38,809 bases of DNA from Candidatus Woesebacteria bacterium RIFCSPLOWO2_01_FULL_39_10 (GCA_001793015.1 MGHC01000029.1:15381-54189), one strand, 5' to 3'. Shown: positions 302-21,489, numbered from the stretch's first letter. The notes: generated by a model from the letters alone, not told the origin. Made by a program: numbers and translations.

Positions 302-1691
302 CCTTATTCTCTTCTAATCTCTTGAGTAGGTTTTCTCTTTCGTTTGGGACTTTTTTCTCCACGACCTCTTCGAATAATTTCTGTAACATTTCCCCGACCT
401 TTGGACTTGGTTTTATTCCTAAGACTTCCATTACATCATTACCTGATATTTTCAGATCGTGAACAGTGAAAGGTTGTTTCTGAACTTCGATAAGCCGTCT
501 TTTAAATTCCTCAAGCCTCCACGATGTTTCACGAGCGCCACCCCCCAATCGATCTCCAATTCTAAGATCAAGCATCTCAGTTATAAGATCCTGCCCAACC
601 TTTCTCAAAAAGCGTCTTACTGCAGAATCAGTTTGTCGCTCATCTACAGTGAATTGATGATATCGGACAAGGCGCCAAAGCTTATCCTTCTCCTTTTTTG
701 AAAAACGGAGTCTATCGGCAATATTTTTCGCAGTTCGCGCACCGATTACTTCGTGGTTATAAAAGGTAATTGTTCCGTTTTCTAATTTTTTGTAAGTTTG
801 TGGTTTTCCGATGTCGTGAATTAGTGTTGCAAAACGAACAATTGGGTCTGTATTTCTTTCTGCGACGTATTTCAAGGCGAGTAAACTATGCGTTCCAACA
901 TCGTATATATGGTGTCTTCCTGGGGACGCTTGTTCCACACCAAAAGTTTTTTCAAGCTCAGGTAAAATCTCTTCCGAAAGTGTTGAGTTTTTAAACATGA
1001 TAATCCCTTCGTGTGGATGAGCTGAAGCAAATATTTTCAAAAGTTCGTCTTTAACCCGTTCTTTAGAGATTTTATGAATTAAGCGAGCGTTAGCCTTTAT
1101 AGCTTCAAAGGTTTTTTCTTCGATTGTAAAACCCAGCTCAGCCGCGATACGAACAGCGCGCATCATCCGTAAGGCATCTTCAGAAAACCTCTCGTTTGGA
1201 TCTCCAACTGCACGAATAAGTTTATTATCAAGATCACTCTGTCCATCAAAGAGATCGATAATTTCAGCATCGACATTTACCATGTTGTGACTAGTGACTA
1301 GTGACTGGTGACTAGTGACTTTCAGTGCAAGGGCATTAATAGTGAAGTCACGCCGTTTAAGATCCTCTTCAAGACTTTTCCCCCACTCTACTTTGTCAGG
1401 TCGTCTTGAGTCCGAATACCCGTATTCGGTTCTGAAAGTTGTTATTTCATATGGTCTTTCGCCTTCGTTCTCGTTAGGTATTCCGACCATGCCAAAGTCA
1501 TTTGTATAATAAGAATCATCAAAAAGTTTCAAAATTTCCTCGGGTTGCGCATTTGTTGTGAAGTCCCAGTCATAGACTGACTTTGACATTAATATGTCGC
1601 GAATGGCACCTCCAACAACGTAGATTTCGAATCCTTTTTCTTCAAACTTATCTATTATTTCATGAACTTTTGGAGGAACCTTTACTTTCAT
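285..1691 (-). CDS. CCA tRNA nucleotidyltransferase / polyA polymerase family with HD domain
   Basis: GGAIRDILM, DWDFTTNA, RRDFTINALAL, RMMRAVRIAAELGF and HDIGKP motifs. Confidence 0.93.
   Translation of the reverse strand: MKVKVPPKVHEIIDKFEEKGFEIYVVGGAIRDILMSKSVYDWDFTTNAQPEEILKLFDDSYYTNDFGMVGIPNENEGERPYEITTFRTEYGYSDSRRPDKVEWGKSLEEDLKRRDFTINALALKVTSHQSLVTSHNMVNVDAEIIDLFDGQSDLDNKLIRAVGDPNERFSEDALRMMRAVRIAAELGFTIEEKTFEAIKANARLIHKISKERVKDELLKIFASAHPHEGIIMFKNSTLSEEILPELEKTFGVEQASPGRHHIYDVGTHSLLALKYVAERNTDPIVRFATLIHDIGKPQTYKKLENGTITFYNHEVIGARTAKNIADRLRFSKKEKDKLWRLVRYHQFTVDERQTDSAVRRFLRKVGQDLITEMLDLRIGDRLGGGARETSWRLEEFKRRLIEVQKQPFTVHDLKISGNDVMEVLGIKPSPKVGEMLQKLFEEVVEKKVPNERENLLKRLEENKDEKEN
1287..1321. 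repeat. Heptanucleotide tandem repeat (GTGACTN)x5 inside the CCA-adding enzyme gene
   Basis: gtgacta gtgacta gtgactg gtgacta gtgactt; encodes ...VTSHQSLVTSH... just after the RRDFTINALAL motif. Confidence 0.95.
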
Positions 1692-1717
1692 ATCTCACTC
1701 ATTATACTTCAAGGAAA

Positions 1718-1750
1718 GGATATCAGGATATCAGGATTTTAAGATATCAA
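1718..1750. repeat. Octamer-like direct repeats (GGATATCA) in the divergent CCA-enzyme/recJ intergenic region
   Basis: ggatatca ggatatca ggattttaa gatatcaa. Confidence 0.8.
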
Positions 1751-1756
1751 GAAAAA

Positions 1757-3676
1757 ATGAAAAATAATTCTTTAAAGTGGGAAGTACTCCACAAATCGCC
1801 AGTCACTAGTCACAAGTCACCAGAAATTATTGATATTCTTTTGGAAAATCGGGGACTTAACACAAAGAAACAAAAAGATGAATTTTTTAATCCTACAGAC
1901 CCTAAAAAGATAGAACTAAAGGAATTAGGAATTAGCGATAAATCTTTAAAAAAGGCAATTAAGAGGATAAAAAAAGCAATCGATAAGGACGAACATATGA
2001 TAATTTACGGTGACTATGATGCTGACGGGGTATGTGCAACAGCAATTTTATGGGAATGTCTTTATTCTTTAACTAAAAACGTTCAACCTTATATTCCCGA
2101 TCGGTTCACTGAAGGGTATGGAATGAATGCTGATACAATCTCAAAACTCAAATCGGAAAACTCAAAACTGAGACTAATAGTGACTGTAGATAACGGTATA
2201 GTAGCTAATGAGGCAATTGATTGTGCAAACGAACTAGGAATTGATGTTATCGTTGCTGATCACCATTTGGAGGGAAAGAAACTTCCAAAAGCACATTCCA
2301 TAATTCACACGACCAAGATTTGCGGATCAGCTATTGCTTGGATATTCTCTCGCGAAATCAATAAAAAACTAATCACTAGTCACACCCTCGGCCTGAGCTC
2401 GGGTCGAAGGCAGTCACCAGTCACCAATCTTGAACTTGCTGCCATAGGAACGATTGCCGATCAGATGCCACTTCTTGGACCAAACCGTTCCTTTGCGAAG
2501 CATGGACTTGAAGCGTTGAATAAAACCAAAAGACCGGGACTAATCGCTCTTTTTGAAGAAGCGGCGTTGATTGAGAGTCAAACCCGCCTTCGCCAAAAGG
2601 CTTCGGCGAGGCAAGTCGGAACTTATGAGGTTAATTTTGTTATTGCTCCACGGATTAACGCTATGGGGAGAATGGAGCATGCGATAGATTCGCTAAGACT
2701 TTTATGTACAACCAATAAACCTCGGGCTAATGAATTGGCGCGACACTTGGCAAAGACTAACCGTGAGAGACAAAGAATAGTTGATGAGATCGTTTTACAT
2801 GCAAGAAATGCTGCCCTGAAAATAAAGTGGCGAGGAGCAATTATCCTTGTCCATGAATCGTATCACGAGGGAGTCATAGGTCTAGCGGCGTCAAAACTAG
2901 TGGAAGAATTTTATCGACCTTCAATAGTTATTTCTAAAGGATCGGAATTTTCCAAAGCATCTGCCCGTTCAATTTCAGGAATTAACATAATAGAGTTGAT
3001 TAACAAAGTTGGAATTATTGAGGGCGGCGGCGGTCATCCAATGGCCGCAGGATTTACTATAAAAACTGAAAAGATTGAGAAATTTATACGAAAGTTCGAT
3101 AAAGCCACCAAGCCCTATTTTACTGAAGATGTTTTACATAAAAAACTTAAAATAGATAGTGAAATTGATTTTGAGGCGATTAATTTAGATCTTTGGGAAG
3201 TTTTAAAGAAATTCGAGCCGACTGGCATTGGGAATCCAAGACCTTGCTTTGCAACAAAACAGGTTAACGTCGCGAGTGCCAGAGTTGTTGGGGGAGATGG
3301 AAAACATTTGAAATTAAATTTGGAAAAACAAGGAGTAACTTTTGAAGCAATAGGATTTGGGATAGGAAATCTTTACGTGAACCTTTCTTCTACAAAGCCA
3401 ATCGATGTTGCATATACCGTTGATGAGAATATCTGGAACGGGAATAAAAAATTACAACTTAAAATTAAAGATATGAAGCTCCCCACGACCTTACGGTCGG
3501 GGTATCCCTTCGGTCTGAGCACTCAGGGTCGAAGACTTCTCCCCTCGCTTCGTCGGGAGCGGAATCCCTCGCGCCGTCGGCAAAGCCTTTGGCGACGTTC
3601 GACCGAAGCGAAGGTCCTTCGCTCCATCCGCCGAGTCAGACTCGGGGGTATTTCGCGAAGGGGGATAAAAGTTTAA
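1757..3676 (+). CDS. recJ: Single-stranded-DNA-specific exonuclease RecJ (DHH/DHHA1), C-terminus extended by repeat-derived sequence
   Basis: YGDYDADGVCATAIL, VTVDNG, VADHH, APRINAMGR and GGGGHPMAAG motifs; start moved from 1583 to MKNNSLKW at 1757, because the upstream ORF overlaps the divergent gene. Confidence 0.93.
   Translation: MKNNSLKWEVLHKSPVTSHKSPEIIDILLENRGLNTKKQKDEFFNPTDPKKIELKELGISDKSLKKAIKRIKKAIDKDEHMIIYGDYDADGVCATAILWECLYSLTKNVQPYIPDRFTEGYGMNADTISKLKSENSKLRLIVTVDNGIVANEAIDCANELGIDVIVADHHLEGKKLPKAHSIIHTTKICGSAIAWIFSREINKKLITSHTLGLSSGRRQSPVTNLELAAIGTIADQMPLLGPNRSFAKHGLEALNKTKRPGLIALFEEAALIESQTRLRQKASARQVGTYEVNFVIAPRINAMGRMEHAIDSLRLLCTTNKPRANELARHLAKTNRERQRIVDEIVLHARNAALKIKWRGAIILVHESYHEGVIGLAASKLVEEFYRPSIVISKGSEFSKASARSISGINIIELINKVGIIEGGGGHPMAAGFTIKTEKIEKFIRKFDKATKPYFTEDVLHKKLKIDSEIDFEAINLDLWEVLKKFEPTGIGNPRPCFATKQVNVASARVVGGDGKHLKLNLEKQGVTFEAIGFGIGNLYVNLSSTKPIDVAYTVDENIWNGNKKLQLKIKDMKLPTTLRSGYPFGLSTQGRRLLPSLRRERNPSRRRQSLWRRSTEAKVLRSIRRVRLGGISRRGIKV
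1801..1821. repeat. Heptamer repeat (AGTCACN)x3 in the recJ N-terminus
   Basis: agtcact agtcaca agtcacc; same unit (reverse complement) as 1287-1321. Confidence 0.9.
2371..2425. repeat. Composite repeat in recJ: four heptamers split by a 27-bp palindromic piece
   Basis: aatcact agtcaca [ccctcggcctgagctcgggtcgaaggc] agtcacc agtcacc; bracketed part resembles cccttcggtctgagcactcagggtcgaag in the 3471-3670 element. Confidence 0.85.
2582..2618. repeat. GC-rich palindromic insertion in recJ
   Basis: acccGCCTTCGCCaaaaggcttcGGCGAGGCaagtcgg; encodes TRLRQKASARQVG immediately before the conserved RecJ block TYEVNFVIAPRINAMGR. Confidence 0.75.
3471..3670 (+). repeat. Modular palindromic element, copy A (~200 bp), in frame at the 3' end of recJ
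   Basis: Starts ATATGAAGCTCCC, ends CGCGAAGGGGGATAAAA; near-identical over long stretches to the reverse complement of 18090-18328. Confidence 0.95.
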
Positions 3677-18089: not shown

Positions 18090-18328
18090 TTTTATCCCCC
18101 TTCGCAGAAAACCTTGGGCGTCCTTCGACAGGCTCAGGATGGTGAGCATTGTCGAACCATAAGCCCGTGGATGAATGCGAAGAAATTTCTGCTTCGGTCG
18201 AACGTCGCCAAAGGCTTTGCCGACGGCGCGAGGGATTTCGCTCCCGACGAAGCACGGGGAGAAGTCTTCGACCCTGAGTGCTCAGACCGAAGGGATACCC
18301 CGACCGTAAGGTCGAGGGAGCTTCATAT
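18090..18328 (-). repeat. Modular palindromic element, copy B (~240 bp), intergenic, with a nested REP-like insertion
   Basis: Reverse complement runs ATATGAAGCTCCC...CTGCGAAGGGGGATAAAA, matching copy A; extra tccttcgacaggctcaggatggtgagcattgtcgaacc at 18121-18158. Confidence 0.95.
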
Positions 18329-20709: not shown

Positions 20710-21489
20710 TTAAAATAACCCAGCTTGTTTAGTTGGTGTGTCTTTTGGATAGGAGAAATCGACCTCGACTTTTTGTAAGGTGTTCCATTTATCTTTAAGA
20801 AGAAGGTGTCCGTTTTGAAGCGCGTAGTCGTAAATATCTCGGGTAATTAACACATCTGCCTCGCAATATTTTTTTAATTTTTCCAAACTTTCCTTATCTC
20901 CCTTTTGCCAATAATATACGGCATTTATTCCCACATCCGTTTTTTCCCGATCCAGTGTTTCTTTTGCGATTGCGTCCAAGGCGATTCGATGACCAAAGAC
21001 TTCTTTGACTTTTTGCATAATGTCAAAGTGTGGAAGTTTTTGAAAAGGGAAGTTGGTGTATGGAGAAAGAGCGGGAATATCAAATCCAAGCGAATTAAAT
21101 CCAATTATCCTATCAGCACTTTGGAAAAGCGGCCACATTTTATCCCCCTTCGCGAAATACCCTGGGCGTATGCCCGCGGATGAACGCGAAGAATATTTCG
21201 CTTCGGTCGAACGTCGCCAAAGGCTTTGCCGACGGCGCGAGGGATTTCTCTCCCTACGAAGCGAGGGAGATTCATCAAAATCCTTTTCCCAGAAGCTTTG
21301 CATTTTGCCTTCGACTACGCTCAGGACAGTGTGTCCTTCGATAGTTCGATTTTGCTCACCACTAAAGCTTTCATCAATTTTTCTTGAATAAACTGAAACA
21401 ATTGAGACTCCAAGATCAGCTGGGTTAAATCCCTCAATATCTCCAAAAAGTTTCTTCGTTTCAACATCGAAAAATACTTCCGAAAGCAT
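20710..21489 (-). CDS. RNase H-like 3'-5' exonuclease (DEDD type) containing in-frame repeat insertions
   Basis: Exo I FFDVETKK, Exo II RIIGFNSLGFDIPAL, Exo III YCEADVLITRDIYDYA; repeat-encoded SPSLRRERNPSRRRQSLWRRSTEAKYSS... lies between Exo I and Exo II. Confidence 0.85.
   Translation of the reverse strand: MLSEVFFDVETKKLFGDIEGFNPADLGVSIVSVYSRKIDESFSGEQNRTIEGHTVLSVVEGKMQSFWEKDFDESPSLRRERNPSRRRQSLWRRSTEAKYSSRSSAGIRPGYFAKGDKMWPLFQSADRIIGFNSLGFDIPALSPYTNFPFQKLPHFDIMQKVKEVFGHRIALDAIAKETLDREKTDVGINAVYYWQKGDKESLEKLKKYCEADVLITRDIYDYALQNGHLLLKDKWNTLQKVEVDFSYPKDTPTKQAGLF
21138..21275 (-). repeat. Modular palindromic element, copy C (138 bp), in frame within the exonuclease gene
   Basis: Reverse complement ATGAATCTCCCTCGCTTCG...CGTCGGCAAAGCCTTTGGCGACGTTCGACCGAAGCGAA...CGCGAAGGGGGATAAAA; lacks the first two hairpins of A and B. 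Confidence 0.95.
21308..21360. repeat. REP-like repeat within the exonuclease gene
   Basis: ccttcgactacgctcaggacagtgtgtccttcgatagttcgattttgctcacc; related to 18121-18158 and 20119-20190. Confidence 0.8.

Follow-up and report, generated by a model that had tools for sequence, protein, structure and literature searches.

The question raised by this locus is how tandem repeats of a 7-bp unit, a length that is not a multiple of three, come to lie inside two housekeeping genes. The window, that is, the whole 38,809-nucleotide stretch of Candidatus Woesebacteria bacterium RIFCSPLOWO2_01_FULL_39_10 that was analyzed, contains the gene for the CCA-adding enzyme (tRNA nucleotidyltransferase) at positions 285–1691 on the minus strand (468 aa; Pfam PolyA_pol, PolyA_pol_RNAbd, tRNA_NucTran2_2 and HD) and recJ at positions 1757–3676 on the plus strand (639 aa; Pfam DHH, DHHA1 and RecJ_OB); the two genes are divergent neighbours in relatives too. 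An earlier note on this DNA had placed five, three and four heptamer units at three sites in these genes. Five units were indeed present in the CCA-adding enzyme gene at 1287–1320 on the minus strand (sense sequence AGTCACTAGTCACCAGTCACTAGTCACTAGTCAC), encoding VTSHQSLVTSH at about residues 124–136, and tandem repeat analysis gave a period of 7, 4.9 copies and 92% matches. The first recJ array (1801–1820, plus strand) consisted, as claimed, of three units, AGTCACTAGTCACAAGTCAC (AGTCACT/AGTCACA/AGTCAC), specifying SPVTSHKSP in the loop that follows the first strand at the RecJ N-terminus. The four units reported further inside recJ, at 2371–2425, were also found but are not contiguous: on the plus strand, one pair (AATCACTAGTCACA, 2371–2384) is separated from the other (CAGTCACCAGTCACC, 2411–2425) by a GC-rich, palindrome-like insert of 26 bp, CCCTCGGCCTGAGCTCGGGTCGAAGG (2385–2410). 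The same strand of recJ holds a degenerate second heptamer family, (CTCAAAA), in frame at 2140–2169, and a GC-rich in-frame insert at 2583–2614 encoding QTRLRQKASAR, which is common to the sister genome G017.

AlphaFold models built on family alignments of the CCA-adding enzyme and RecJ placed the CCA array at the tip of a β-hairpin (strands 122–133 and 137–145; local pLDDT about 70–81). The region of the first RecJ array comprised a strand (residues 7–16) and a helix (21–31), and pLDDT was below 50 for the second RecJ array (residues 208–221), for the 2583–2614 insert (residues 275–284) and for the C-terminal tail. The models show the arrays in predicted disordered or turn loops of these essential proteins, and the arrays mark sites where essential bacterial proteins tolerate extra residues.

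The 1.15-Mb genome (38 contigs) was searched for related heptamers. The pattern ARTCACNARTCAC matched 53 times, in 26 clusters, against a single match for the reversed control, and AGTCACNAGTCAC matched 12 times against none, so that other arrays do exist in the genome, as the proposal of the earlier note required. The arrays are direct repeats of 14–36 bp genome-wide and are without terminal inverted repeats, and the tandem 7-bp unit is over-represented above chance in this genome. All 26 clusters of ARTCACNARTCAC lay on the sense strand of ORFs of at least 177 aa, with none antisense or intergenic; gene calls were longest-ORF heuristics, and the cluster of the CCA array, first assigned through ORF choice to a spurious short antisense ORF, is actually sense in the CCA gene. 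The clusters encode peptides such as VTSHQSLVTSH and ITNHQSPIT. Exact three-unit arrays gave the same picture (14 coding vs 0 intergenic), as did a fuzzy scan with at most three mismatches over 527 kb of the genome, 14.5% of which falls outside ORFs of 100 aa (24 sense, 0 antisense, 0 intergenic); the reversed-sequence control of that scan was not clean, because a reversed ARTCACN array resembles itself, and the conclusion rests on the sense/antisense/intergenic split. The hosts named by Pfam are mostly essential core genes: the CCA-adding enzyme, RecJ, a Pol I-type 5′–3′ exonuclease, UvrB, UvrD, ArgRS, TrmD, Pth, CTP synthase, SecA, SpoIID and a PALP+CBS protein, together with three glycosyltransferases, Wzy_C and two PMT_2 proteins.

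The genetic code accounts for the single orientation. Read forward, ARTCACN encodes S/N-H-(NAR)-S-(CNR)-(I/V)-T whichever of the three frames is used, and a stop codon (TAG/TAA) arises only where the NAR codon has T as its N; on the backward reading, TGA turns up within three units. At the NAR codon, N was A in eight cases, C in four, G in three and T in none, compared with T in 16 of 38 at the other two phases (Fisher p = 0.002). Since N is never T at this codon, the coding arrays are evidently read and selected for readability. Such a stop-codon limit on orientation has already been described for TAACTGA heptamers (PMC4679880). AGTCACN arrays occur in many phyla: other genomes of the same phylum had 13 intergenic, 11 sense and no antisense arrays, and in other phyla arrays of at least three units were intergenic in 74 of 113 cases (65%), the remaining 39 being coding-sense and none antisense. 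The deficit of intergenic arrays here relative to the rest of the phylum (14:0 vs 11:13, coding to intergenic) corresponds to a probability of about 5e-4 by hand calculation. We conclude that the orientation bias is a general rule, whereas this genome is exceptional in having no intergenic copies and is also the richest in the unit among the 379 genomes of our phylum sample. Three-unit AGTCACN as a phylum marker or clade-wide element was considered and rejected, because it is rare in the phylum (5 of 379 genomes).

Removal or addition of one or two units truncated the predicted CCA-adding enzyme at residues 135–137 of 468; the same changes truncated RecJ at 19–49 aa when made in its first array and at 220–234 aa when made in its second, while removal of three units kept the frame open in the CCA and RecJ arrays. 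The expectation that slippage by a single unit would frameshift either protein was therefore correct, and it is the one feature expected of phase-variable contingency loci, in which unit gain and loss would alternately silence and restore the CCA-adding enzyme or RecJ, the 7-bp unit not being a multiple of three. However, the hosts are core enzymes (UvrB, SecA, Pth, TrmD, ArgRS, CTP synthase and the CCA-adding enzyme), unlike typical surface contingency genes, although some glycosyltransferases are among the hosts as well, and the arrays are short and degenerate. Comparison of sister genera, at about 75% protein identity, also argued against switching. The CCA array had five units in both G000 and G017, with register kept and equal length, and its spacers read NAG in one and NGA in the other throughout; the UvrB array likewise kept five units, register and length in both genera, with eight differences. 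To judge from these two genes, the arrays seem to mutate very little in copy number, the other possibility the earlier note had raised; unit number fixed across species, which that note had regarded as evidence against its proposal, was found for these two genes between two genera. A role for the arrays of these genes as phase-variation switches is not supported by the compared sequences, and we regard it as extremely unlikely.

Although copy number was kept in these cases, unit sequence was not always kept. Across about 29 relatives for each protein, the array loops of the CCA-adding enzyme and RecJ proved hypervariable, with flanks that align cleanly; the CCA loop remains in frame across 30 genomes while varying greatly in length, and many relatives are without any array in the loop. 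Among UvrD orthologs drawn from the sampled stretches, a loop of equal length held (AATCACG)4 in G000 and (AGCTACN)4 in G048, and G017 held a decayed array. Two other genes behaved similarly at equal length: one on contig C27 (177-aa protein) carried four copies of TTTCCAA vs four of CTACYAN, and one on contig C29 (244-aa protein) carried four copies of TTTCCAA vs four of a GTTAGAG-type unit, the latter two arrays being only 31% identical to each other, with 7-bp periodicity significant in each. In all, matching loops of the CCA-adding enzyme, RecJ, UvrD and these two proteins hold heptamer arrays of differing units in sister genera, a pattern that a single spreading element cannot account for. 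Besides any dissemination, arrays must also have grown repeatedly at loops that permit them. The persistence of period and position while the unit changes argues against both a copy-number switch and a sole spreading cassette. The comparison leaves two candidate routes, independent +21 events at one permissive loop or length-neutral homogenization. When UvrB and CTP synthase were examined for a 21-bp gain relative to an empty site, the loops were found to vary in 3-bp steps and some array-free relatives had equal length; for UvrB, such equal-length loops are as compatible with decay or overwriting of an array as with its insertion.

Dissemination of the unit, which the earlier note had favoured over independent growth, found only partial support. 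Array sites are clustered (7 pairs less than 2 kb apart vs 1.04 expected, p = 0.00035), and TTTCCAA-type arrays often share a gene with an ARTCACN array; together these observations support hot-spot genes or local copying. The clustering, the occurrence of one unit family at 26 sites and the richness of this genome among the 379 would also suit a mobile or copying cassette, analogous to the protein-coding palindromic elements of Rickettsia, that spreads (ARTCACN)n and inserts it in frame, as would the GC-rich palindrome-like elements nested in the heptamer arrays of recJ and contig C6. Such a cassette is nevertheless unlikely: neither conserved ends nor a target duplication nor a carrier gene was found, the matching loops of relatives hold arrays of unrelated units, and a neutral cassette should have left some intergenic copies.

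To examine array length, we took a census of perfect period-7 runs over 2.06 Mb, of which about 527 kb came from this genome and 1.53 Mb from other members of the phylum. Within ORFs, 28 runs measured 28–34 bp (mode 31) and six measured 22–27 bp, and none reached 35 bp; outside ORFs, six runs of 22–27 bp, one of 28–34 bp and one of 67 bp were found. Although the numbers are modest, coding and intergenic run lengths differed (28:6 vs 1:6, p = 0.0012), and the contrast was unchanged when runs from stretches chosen for their array were dropped (roughly 7 of the 28 in ORFs, and the one of 67 bp outside them). An order-4 Markov null over the 2.06 Mb produced no perfect period-7 run of at least 21 bp, and no perfect array of at least four copies was found there for units of 8, 10 or 11 bp. 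These results show that perfect coding arrays are quantized at about four copies. A four-copy array amounts to an original unit with three more added, and those 21 bp are the shortest gain by which the reading frame is kept. Runs usually extend about 3 bp beyond 28, which suggests slippage between 3-bp direct repeats lying 7 bp apart. The degenerate arrays of the window break the four-copy rule, with five units in the CCA gene and three and 2+2 units in recJ.

The reading that we prefer, at a probability of roughly 0.6, is that heptamers slip recurrently, that reading frame and stop codons filter the products, and that the arrays then persist as frame-locked passengers in loops. New arrays would form again and again where short direct repeats allow a strand to slip by 7 bp or the template to be switched, and within genes only events of net +21 bp or net zero (slip and return) would survive. 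Copy number would then be frozen, because single-unit changes would be lethal, while the unit sequence could still be homogenized or overwritten at constant length. The four-copy coding peak is what the addition of three units would be expected to give. Counting against frame-locking, other phyla have many AGTCACN arrays in intergenic DNA (74 of 113) but this genome has none, and frame-locking accounts for the missing intergenic arrays only if such arrays erode fast. A related but rather unlikely scheme is that repeat-templated slip-and-return synthesis repeatedly writes arrays of 7-bp periodicity into the loops of proteins, or rewrites them there, without altering loop length; if so, the period, the position and the number of copies would pass to descendants but the unit itself would be exchanged as a whole, amounting to a frame-preserving, concerted diversification of loops in essential genes.

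Two further explanations attribute the arrays to properties of the repeat itself. Between genera, the TCAC cores of the UvrB array showed no changes at 20 positions vs 8 at 22 elsewhere (p = 0.003), and different units give similar-looking peptides (NHQSPIT, NFQFPIS, SYQLPAT), as might be expected if selection acted on the peptide as such, or on the TCAC phasing of the DNA or RNA, for a role such as that of linker or protein-binding site. Yet orthologs differ in unit sequence, many relatives are without an array in the loop, the peptides are alike as a consequence of the units belonging to the stop-free class, and the core conservation was seen in one gene only, making such selection distinctly improbable. 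Alternatively, AGTCACT/AGTGACT strands could fold back with one mismatch per unit, as in triplet repeats, and the hairpin could drive growth. The AGTCACT array and the AGTGACT strand of the CCA array did fold well (DNA-fold z-scores of −3.9 and −3.5), but AATCACG and ATTGGAA arrays folded no better than shuffled sequences; we rejected hairpin-driven expansion as a general cause on this ground, and give it very little probability here.

Heptamer simple-sequence repeats are on record in prokaryotes (Mrazek 2007, as cited in PMC4679880 and PMC4692102; SPADE survey, PMC6344855); in many prokaryotes no short tandem repeats are more abundant between genes than heptamers, whose function is acknowledged as an open question (PMC6344855). 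Our arrays resemble these repeats and the cyanobacterial STRR heptamers in their 7-bp unit and sporadic taxonomic distribution; however, the prokaryotic heptamers were reported to be mostly intergenic, whereas every AGTCACN/AATCACN array here lies within a gene and in sense orientation, for the most part in core genes. The TAACTGA heptamers of Beggiatoaceae and cyanobacteria (PMC4679880) are similarly dispersed, with their orientation in ORFs limited by stop codons, but most of them are intergenic and sit immediately before start codons, and those within ORFs are peripheral; the arrays here lie inside essential proteins and their unit sequence varies between orthologs. Rickettsia palindromic elements (reviewed in PMC2229807) are also in-frame repeats in conserved genes, tolerated as passengers, but form stem-loops of 105–146 bp rather than tandem heptamers of 14–36 bp without defined ends; the GC-rich inserts nested in our arrays come nearer to such elements than the heptamers do. 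Borg tandem repeats (PMC9879509) create disordered protein regions under strong frame selection, but every unit length in their ORFs is divisible by three, whereas here the frame is kept through the copy number of a 7-bp unit. Heptamer repeats and stop-codon control of orientation are therefore already known. By contrast, the four-copy quantum and same-length unit replacement appear to be new: a literature search on heptamer repeats in this bacterial group retrieved nothing specific, and no prior report of exclusive intragenic placement, a four-copy quantum or same-length unit replacement was found in the open literature searched. Genes that tolerate only multiples of 21 bp are a natural recorder of slippage step size, and the four-copy gene peak, together with same-length arrays of different units, makes step size and turnover mechanism directly testable.

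Several minor observations concern the repeats of this genome and of others. Elements similar to CCTTCGAC..GCTCAGG, comparable to the 26-bp recJ insert, occur elsewhere in the genome; a like insert splits a heptamer array at C6:33905–33955 and probably another at C1:34621–34677, and these GC-rich palindrome-like elements are nested in heptamer arrays repeatedly, as if the arrays were landing sites. A dispersed GC-rich repeat at 3481–3676 (plus strand) supplies the recJ stop codon and a tail of about 65 residues; relatives end about 65 residues earlier, at about KDIK, and other copies of the repeat lie at 18169–18318 and 21138–21267 of the window and in contigs C6, C26 and C27. Octamer arrays (GATATTAA, TACTGGNN and CTAGTTCA types) were intergenic in 14 of 21 cases in this genome, the opposite of the heptamers; they include (AGGATATC)4 at 1717–1749, in the gap between the CCA gene and recJ, and others in the C5, C19, C26 and C31 stretches. 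Among the AGTCACN loci sampled elsewhere, L027 and L113 carry arrays of different units after a matching motif (ILAQMMEPL and ILGQMMEPL), and are apparently one protein and so a further case of arrays sharing a loop. The cyanobacterium Sphaerospermopsis kisseleviana NIES-73 had 260 three-unit AGTCACN matches, and all five loci checked were intergenic. On two viral contigs (L132 and L134), a span of about 140 bp contained AGTCACN arrays of either orientation, and a third (L145) had seven four-unit matches in 14.8 kb.
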